Of a stretch of 35,500 nt of DNA, positions 26,776 to 27,615 are shown piece by piece; position 1 is the first letter of the stretch; each line of letters opens with the position of its first letter. The stretch covers positions 1 through 35,500 of the forward strand of contig JADGEC010000024.1 in the NCBI GenBank assembly GCA_016744575.1. The letters run 5' to 3'. Origin of the DNA: Sulfurimonadaceae bacterium (GTDB taxonomy: Bacteria > Campylobacterota > Campylobacteria > Campylobacterales > Sulfurimonadaceae). The notes beneath the pieces were generated by a model that had not been told where the DNA came from, made no database searches, and saw only the letters and a program-made list of their open reading frames with translations. A program made the position numbers and the translations under genes.

Positions 26776-26798
26776 GAGTCCAAGATGGCATCGTTAGC

Positions 26799-27098
26799 TT
26801 ATACCAACCCTCGCTAAGGGGTGCTACTTTAAACGAGCATAGTGTGTTAGAGTGTGAGGCAGGAGTCGGCAGGAGCTACTGGTAGCTTCAAGGACTTCTA
26901 ACGAAGCAATATGACACACTATGTTCGCCCTTCGGGTAAAAGATAAGCCATCATCTACTTCGTTAGGCCTTATTGGATTAACCAGTTAGTCTGCGCCCAA
27001 GCGAAGCGACAAAGTGCTCCTGGGGTGCAAAGACCTGCCTTGTAGCTAATAGCTTTTCTCTTATTTAAAGTAGTACCCCTTAGCGGGGGTTGGTATAA
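26799..27098. mobile_element. MITE-like element with 35-bp terminal inverted repeats
   Basis: The left end 26799-26833 (TTATACCAACCCTCGC...) and the reverse complement of the right end 27064-27098 match at 33 of 35 bases. The element is 300 bp and encodes no protein. TA dinucleotides flank the TACCAACC tips on both sides, consistent with a TA target duplication. The inside is highly structured: GAGCATAGTGTGT (26835-26847) faces ACACACTATGTTC (26914-26926), AGCTAC/GTAGCT (26874-26887) nests inside, and CTAACGAAG (26898-26906) faces CTTCGTTAG (26958-26966). No transposase is present in the window, so it would be mobilised in trans. Confidence 0.82.
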
Positions 27099-27102
27099 AG
27101 TA

Positions 27103-27615
27103 TTGACAGAGAAAAACATAAAGTTTATCGAGGTGCAGAGGCTTTTCTATCTGGCCAGTGTCTCAGACAAAGAGGTGAACCTCTCACCAAAAGGACATGA
27201 CTCACTGCGGGTGCTGGATGAGAGCACACTGCTGTTTATGAACTACTCGGGCAGCGGCAACCGGACGTACCGCGACGCGGTCAATGATGGTGAGTTCACC
27301 ATGGTCTTTAATGCTTTTGAAGGCAAACCGAAAATAGTCCGACTCTTCTGTAAAGCAGGCATCGTCCATAAAGAAGATGAAGCGTTTGAGAAGTATCTGG
27401 CTATGTTTGGCGAAAATCCTTCTCTGGTGCGCAATCTCTTTATCTTTCACATCTATGCGGTAGAGATCAGCTGTGGTTATACTGTTCCGGAGATGGCGAT
27501 CAAAGCGGAGCGGACTTATCTGCATGATTGGATGACTGACTATGTTGAGAAAGGCAGACTCGAAGCCTATAACATCAAGAACTTCACACCACCAGACTTA
27601 CGAGCATATAGATAA
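27103..27615 (+). CDS. PNPOx-like split-barrel protein, start altered by MITE
   Basis: The 170-residue frame from TTG at 27103 encodes a pyridoxamine-phosphate-oxidase-like protein: IKFIEVQRLFYLASVSDKEVNLSPKGHDSLRVLDESTLLF, GSGNRTYRDAVNDGEFTMVFNAFEGKPKIVRLFCKAGIV and the C-terminal VEISCGYTVPEMAIKAERTYLHDW. Relatives of 180-190 residues carry about ten more N-terminal residues before this point. Here the MITE ends five bases before the TTG and the frame runs open back into it to 27046 with no ATG. The insertion has therefore probably removed the native start and ribosome site. Function in the family is unclear (flavin or heme binding). It is followed by a decayed MITE derivative and a Crp/Fnr gene. 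Confidence 0.82.
   Translation: MTEKNIKFIEVQRLFYLASVSDKEVNLSPKGHDSLRVLDESTLLFMNYSGSGNRTYRDAVNDGEFTMVFNAFEGKPKIVRLFCKAGIVHKEDEAFEKYLAMFGENPSLVRNLFIFHIYAVEISCGYTVPEMAIKAERTYLHDWMTDYVEKGRLEAYNIKNFTPPDLRAYR

Follow-up and report, generated by a model that had tools for sequence, protein, structure and literature searches.

Locus and Element

The window, i.e., the whole stretch of 35,500 nucleotides of a Sulfurimonadaceae contig that was analysed, contains a non-coding element with inverted ends that interrupts a PNPOx-like gene. The features of this locus, in window positions, are the following.

26785..26798, + strand: 5' end of the interrupted PNPOx-like gene (ATG GCA TCG TTA GC), with a Shine-Dalgarno-like TAGGAG upstream
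26799..26801, no strand: left target-site copy TTA, probably a mutated TAA (from flank comparison and the joined frame)
26802..27095, no strand: MITE of 294 bp, bounded by aligning homologous copies; the canonical length of the family is about 262 bp
26802..26833, + strand: left terminal inverted repeat (TIR) of 32 bp, helix 1 of the consensus structure
26834..26927, + strand: stem 1, with the core AGGC-helix-GCAGG-hairpin-CAAG-helix-AACG (helices 2-5; covariance model R1)
26928..26936, + strand: mini-hairpin CCC-TTC-GGG between the stems; CCC...GGG is present in most aligned homologues and the loop is variable
26937..27063, - strand: stem 2, with the core motif of stem 1 inverted (helices 7-10; covariance model R1)
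26992..27025, no strand: extra segment of about 32 bp at the tip of stem 2, where the remaining rows of alignment A2 have a gap
27064..27095, - strand: right TIR of 32 bp, the partner arm in helix 1
27096..27098, no strand: right target-site copy TAA (from flank comparison and the joined frame)
27099..27615, + strand: remainder of the interrupted PNPOx-like gene (PF01243, E 1.9e-5, below the gathering cut-off)

The boundary of the element was set at 26802-27095 because 31 homologues give TACCA...TGGTA. An initial annotation, made from the letters alone, had described a non-coding element of 300 bp with 35-bp inverted ends, flanked by TA, with a folded interior and no encoded protein. Such an element is indeed present, and 33 of 35 bases are complementary between 26799-26833 and 27064-27098, but this repeat is made of the arms plus the target copy: the 300 bp comprise the element and both target copies, while the element proper has 294 bp and 32-bp arms. 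Likewise, the flanking duplication is real but consists of 3-bp TWA target copies instead of a TA that is part of the element. No second match to the TIR with up to three mismatches is present in the window, and shuffled sequences have none either. The approximately 230 bp between the arms fold much better than shuffled sequence, and the folding of the whole element is far above chance, both as RNA (MFE of -141.7 versus -87.2 +/- 5.5 for shuffles, z -9.9) and as DNA (z -7.6), in agreement with the annotated fold; no ORF of 80 or more amino acids lies inside, as had been stated. Model R1, which describes the half-element core and was built from 24 sequences, the window among them, matches stem 1 at 26842-26921 on the + strand (85.2 bits, E 5e-20) and stem 2 at 26943-27055 on the - strand (E 6.3e-9).

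The 32-bp extra segment at 26992..27025 is missing in the 262-bp copies. Segments like it are present elsewhere in the window's genome (G000) and also in G009 and G011. A hairpin like TGCGCCCAAGCGAAGCGACAAAGTGCTCCTGGGG is found in the tip of stem 2 of the window element and also on its own, as a stand-alone repeat that often lies at the end of a contig, in the window's genome and in related ones (window 26992-27025; L011, L012, L013, L015, L022, L045 and L047); it may be a module capable of passing from one element to another.

The interrupted gene, judging from its match to PF01243, is probably near the PNPOx family, and nine further matches are found in other places. The element is inserted in codon 5, 14 bases into the gene. 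When the flanks are joined with one TAA, they read ATG GCA TCG TTA GCT AAA GTA TTG ACA GAG..., a frame of 177 aa that is open only with the TAA target copy and whose N-terminus, MASLAKVLTEKNIKFIE, aligns gap-free with the homologue starts MGKQYKxLTxxDIxFI in other genomes. Because joining the flanks restores this frame and its alignment with homologue starts, the window copy is an insertion that parted the first five codons from the rest of the gene; we infer its pre-insertion site from the gene frame.

A Dispersed Family in Campylobacterales

The window's own genome contains copies that are 94% (G000:C185) and 85% (G000:C4) identical to the window element, together with several remnants, and a neighbour species of the same genus (G001) has one copy, 93% identical. 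Of 80 relatives, 32 have matches to model R1, as many as 38 in a single genome; across the class, 36 of 397 genomes have such matches, and these span several families of the order. The exact core pattern, searched across 84,980 species, is present in 88 DNA stretches (the collection may omit records close to the window's genome), all titled Campylobacterota and mostly from Sulfurimonas or relatives, but also from Nitratifractor and Arcobacter. All family matches found lie within Campylobacterales, in several bacterial families; no match to the window element was obtained in phage records. The collection assembled here comprises 111 distinct elements, mostly of 262-275 bp. Near-identical copies (98.9-99.6%) occupy different sites in several genomes, and the closed genome G191 has ten copies that are 97-99% identical and flanked by TA (L299-L309).

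Several observations concern partial or neighbouring sequences. Palindromes of about 26-60 bp made of TACCA tips alone, most of them TWA-flanked, are present at L010 (1501-1549), L024 (1496-1526), L286, L287 and L297 and are probably remnants of internal deletion. At L005 (1500-1558), a 58-bp element end lies at the 3' end of a transporter-like gene and seems to be a remnant within coding sequence or adjacent to it. In draft genomes of sulfur-oxidising Campylobacterota, the family repeat often lies at the end of a contig. A TPP riboswitch is located at L039 (748-840), beside the locus of one family element.

Mobility and Candidate Transposases

Copies of the window's type, the TACCA type, start with TACCA and end with TGGTA (one has a variant end), the outer three bases being TAA or TTA. 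Identical 3-bp flanks (TWA) are present in 25 of 31 such copies, versus a mean of 13.4 when right flanks are shuffled, and none of 10,000 shuffles reaches 25; the window copy, with TTA and TAA, has one mismatch and thus a degenerate duplication. In the GGGCACC type, 4-bp duplications are found in 5 of 13. For this type, an empty site is available from two Sulfurimonas MAGs whose regions are approximately 93-97% identical: CACTTAA-element-TTAATAAAATATAGG at L152 versus CACTTAATAAAATATAGG at the orthologous L143, i.e., TTAA-element-TTAA versus a single TTAA. Where different species carry elements in one orthologous gap, these elements differ both in type and in position, which is the pattern expected of independent insertions. 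Insertion hot spots were considered and rejected, since there is only a handful of shared gaps, with differing positions, and a rough estimate gives about the same number by chance. At L187 (1959-2360), a GGGCACC-type element carries a nested palindromic element with TCCCGGATTTTGCATTAG ends.

The arms of the family are of at least eight types, two of which match IS elements. The closed genome G491 contains twelve near-identical IS copies of 1228-1258 bp (L319-L331) that encode a 326-aa IS5-family transposase (NF033581, 2.6e-77) and have the ends (A)TTGAACCCTCTGAACAA, which are also the ends of f-type MITEs, the match covering 17-18 bp. An f-type MITE with a few mismatches (L315) resides alongside this IS in G491, and AATT-like 4-bp flanks are found in both. 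An IS701-type IS in G020 and G227 (L226 and L263; NF049921, 1.9e-99 for L226) has the TIR CTGACCTTACGCA, and the same tips are found in the MITEs L039, L053 and L317 (G075, G258 and others), with a match of 13-14 bp. Both the IS5-family and the IS701-type IS are 1.1-1.26 kb long and encode a transposase, and the structured core was seen neither in that of G491 nor in those of G020 and G227. One core is thus found with the tips of two transposase families.

Carriers of the family yielded neither a transposase nor a longer element with TACCA ends. G000, G004, G037, G039 and other carriers lack PF01609, and in G037 no single TACCA ends are paired around a transposase-like ORF. The closed genome G191 has a burst of copies, yet no PF01609 (DDE_Tnp_1) and no longer element with its TIR. 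Multi-copy IS elements are often lost from draft and metagenome assemblies, and because several carriers are such assemblies, absence of the transposase is weak evidence there and stronger in the closed G191. Distant tip pairs at L099 and L187 were rejected as autonomous elements, the former being a lone end next to host genes and the latter a nested insertion.

The initial annotation knew of no named family with these ends, read the element as a MITE or else as an expressed structured RNA, and named dispersed relatives, empty sites and a full-length relative with a transposase as things to look for, with a single copy at a fixed place as the sign of a fixed structured locus. Dispersed copies are present in G000, G001 and other Campylobacterales, and the element is thus neither single-copy nor bound to one place. 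A clean empty site (TTAA) was obtained for the GGGCACC-type sister but none at close range for the TACCA type itself; similarly, tip-sharing IS were identified for two sister types but not for the TACCA type. An Rfam search with the element gave no match (SNORD12 at E 0.42 is a chance hit), the publications searched for MITEs together with Sulfurimonas or epsilonproteobacteria contained no description of the family, and the family, which is large and apparently undescribed, is at home in sulfur-oxidising and related bacteria. Since its homologues are mobile, the window element is a MITE, and this assignment is well supported by dispersal, target duplications, the sister-type empty site, the interruption of a gene, and the tips that sister types share with IS elements; with 294 bp and no coding sequence, the element also stays below the upper size of about 600 bp for MITEs.

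The Structured Core

Throughout the family, the plan of the element is the same: arms of about 33 bp enclose stem 1, a CCC-loop-GGG mini-hairpin and stem 2. The motif of a stem consists of AAGGC, a helix of 7-8 bp, GCAGG, a short hairpin (often GCTAC-NN-GTAGC), CAAG, the helix partner and AACG, and it is present in both stems, inverted relative to each other, which means that each DNA strand, or RNA from either, carries one forward copy. More than 110 elements have this cruciform-like plan of approximately 262 bp despite at least eight terminal-repeat types, and a fold with two large branches and the mini-hairpin is obtained for 90 of 111 elements, versus 1 of 111 with a shuffled interior between unchanged arms.

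Covariation was analysed in 24 TACCA-type elements with 103 predicted pairs. In this set, 95.5% of cells are paired, and two-sided changes affect 70 of the 103 pairs (453 cells). Shuffle controls, in which relatedness is ignored, give 77.4% paired, with 45 pairs and 138 cells changed on both sides; controls with a slid structure give 33-42% paired and 48-80 two-sided cells, and although the structure was derived from the alignment on which it was scored, which favours the real structure over the slid ones, the gap is very large. In the terminal arms (helix 1), 24 of 32 pairs have two-sided changes, and homologues retain 96.2% of the arm pairs. In the core, 24 of 29 pairs have two-sided changes. 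Among copies that are about 90% or more alike, 13 compensatory pairs are seen in the interior versus approximately three double changes of any kind expected. The fold looks selected.

As for genomic context, the neighbouring genes are divergent in 40 cases, tandem in 46 and convergent in 4; against the expectation from intergenic length (37/48/15%, respectively), only the shortage of convergent sites stands out. Orientation within tandem gene pairs is 4 versus 4, eight cases being too few to decide. Read outward, TACCA-type tips give TGGTATAAT, an extended -10-like sequence, and on this ground some TACCA-type insertions may supply promoters. The outward TGGTATAAT was rejected as the cause of placement: other types are without it, and the excess of divergent over convergent sites shrinks against a length-weighted background. 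Retention of gene-facing single ends in G037 was also rejected, as it amounts to about 9 of 17, no more than expected.

Mechanism and Alternative Explanations

The element is very probably a gene-less MITE with a conserved foldable interior that is moved in trans by a DDE transposase. Such an enzyme would recognise the outer 13-18 bp of the tips, and transposition would duplicate a short T..A-type target: the 3-bp TWA in the window's type, 4 bp in two types, and TA in others. The IS5 and IS701 transposases presumably move the sister types with which they share tips, and we infer that a related transposase moves, or once moved, the window's type. The interior is a conserved foldable module, held within the terminal stem and composed of two inverted copies of one hairpin motif and the mini-hairpin, that could work in either orientation of insertion. 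Its most likely role would be to aid propagation or tolerance of the element, either through folding of the DNA (as a cruciform, or as a single strand while it is replicated) or through a structured transcript. It is possible, although we put this forward only tentatively, that the element is a transposase-switching parasite, in which a fold-selected core with its own DNA or RNA function in transposition or survival acquires the tips of distant transposase families (IS5, IS701 and others) and is itself the lasting unit.

The paired changes could alternatively result from template switching within hairpins (quasi-palindrome correction), with no selection on structure. Template switching is known to turn imperfect palindromes into perfect ones, and it could in part account for the symmetry of the arms, which among close copies have the largest share of two-sided changes (26 pairs). 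However, it would erase the unpaired AGGC/AACG and GCAG/CAAG positions, and these rank among the most conserved; moreover, one-sided changes in the interior preserve a standard pair about as often as they break it (63 versus 65), and we consider this origin of the fold unlikely. A different source of selection is envisaged if the inverted repeats enclose a structured RNA gene or a cis-regulatory RNA whose transcript works in the cell. Strong covariation, conserved internal-loop residues and the location of most elements upstream of genes (40 divergent and 46 tandem versus 4 convergent) would fit a functional RNA, but dispersal with target duplications, the sister-type empty site and the position of the window copy inside coding sequence would not; in addition, Rfam offers no match, orientation in tandem pairs is unbiased (4 versus 4), and the upstream placement becomes weak after correction for intergenic length, which leaves the RNA explanation with a small chance of being right.

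Two further mechanisms of mobility were weighed against DDE transposition. With two inverted hairpin motifs per element, the family resembles REPINs, and these hairpins could be the substrate of a Y1 (RAYT) tyrosine transposase. Yet Y1_Tnp is absent from the many-copy carriers G004, G037, G039 and G041, as well as from G046, and is present in about 19 of 32 carriers versus 20 of 48 non-carriers, which is no clear association; as the target duplications and the IS-like tips indicate a DDE mechanism, a REPIN-like element is very improbable. The inner boxes are also superficially similar to those of integron attC recombination sites (TAACGAAG...CTTCGTTAGGC), but no integron integrase above the curated cut-off is found in the window's genome, and the elements occur singly, between target duplications and outside cassette arrays; we see next to no prospect of an attC-like origin.

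Comparison with Known Elements

The normal definition of a MITE relies on its ends, and the interior is commonly regarded as what is left of a deleted transposon. In the family described here the interior is conserved and the ends vary, with two end types that match different transposon families. If this is true, a non-coding structured module is the persistent unit of a mobile element and is able to change its machinery. The family provides a large natural covariation set with which the importance of MITE folding for transposition can be tested, and it explains an undescribed repeat that has split a gene in the window.

Correia elements may contain an AAGGC-N8-GCAG stretch similar to the core motif of the family. 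These elements (CREE/NEMIS) of Neisseria are non-coding, 105-155 bp long, with inverted repeats of about 24 bp, TA ends and target duplication, and a highly base-paired transcript and promoters were reported for them (PMC2229807, PMC10969869). Non-coding sequence, inverted repeats and target duplication are common to both, whereas the length of 262-294 bp, the four-way-junction plan, several TIR types, the TWA target and the occurrence in Campylobacterales only set the present family apart. ERIC/RU-1 of enterobacteria, a dispersed palindromic repeat of 127 bp with a 7-bp TIR and target duplication (PMC2229807), shares dispersal and target duplication with our elements but is one sequence family. 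RUP of Streptococcus pneumoniae is a MITE whose tips match the resident IS630-Spn1, by which it is thought to be moved in trans (PMC2229807); RUP has one IS partner, while here one core is found behind the tips of at least two IS families. REPINs likewise have two inverted hairpin motifs and are mobile in trans, but they are RAYT-associated, whereas the elements described here have long TIRs and target duplications, and the Y1 transposase is missing in many carriers. The window element is a MITE, a known kind of element, and the structured core kept across tip types is its unusual part.
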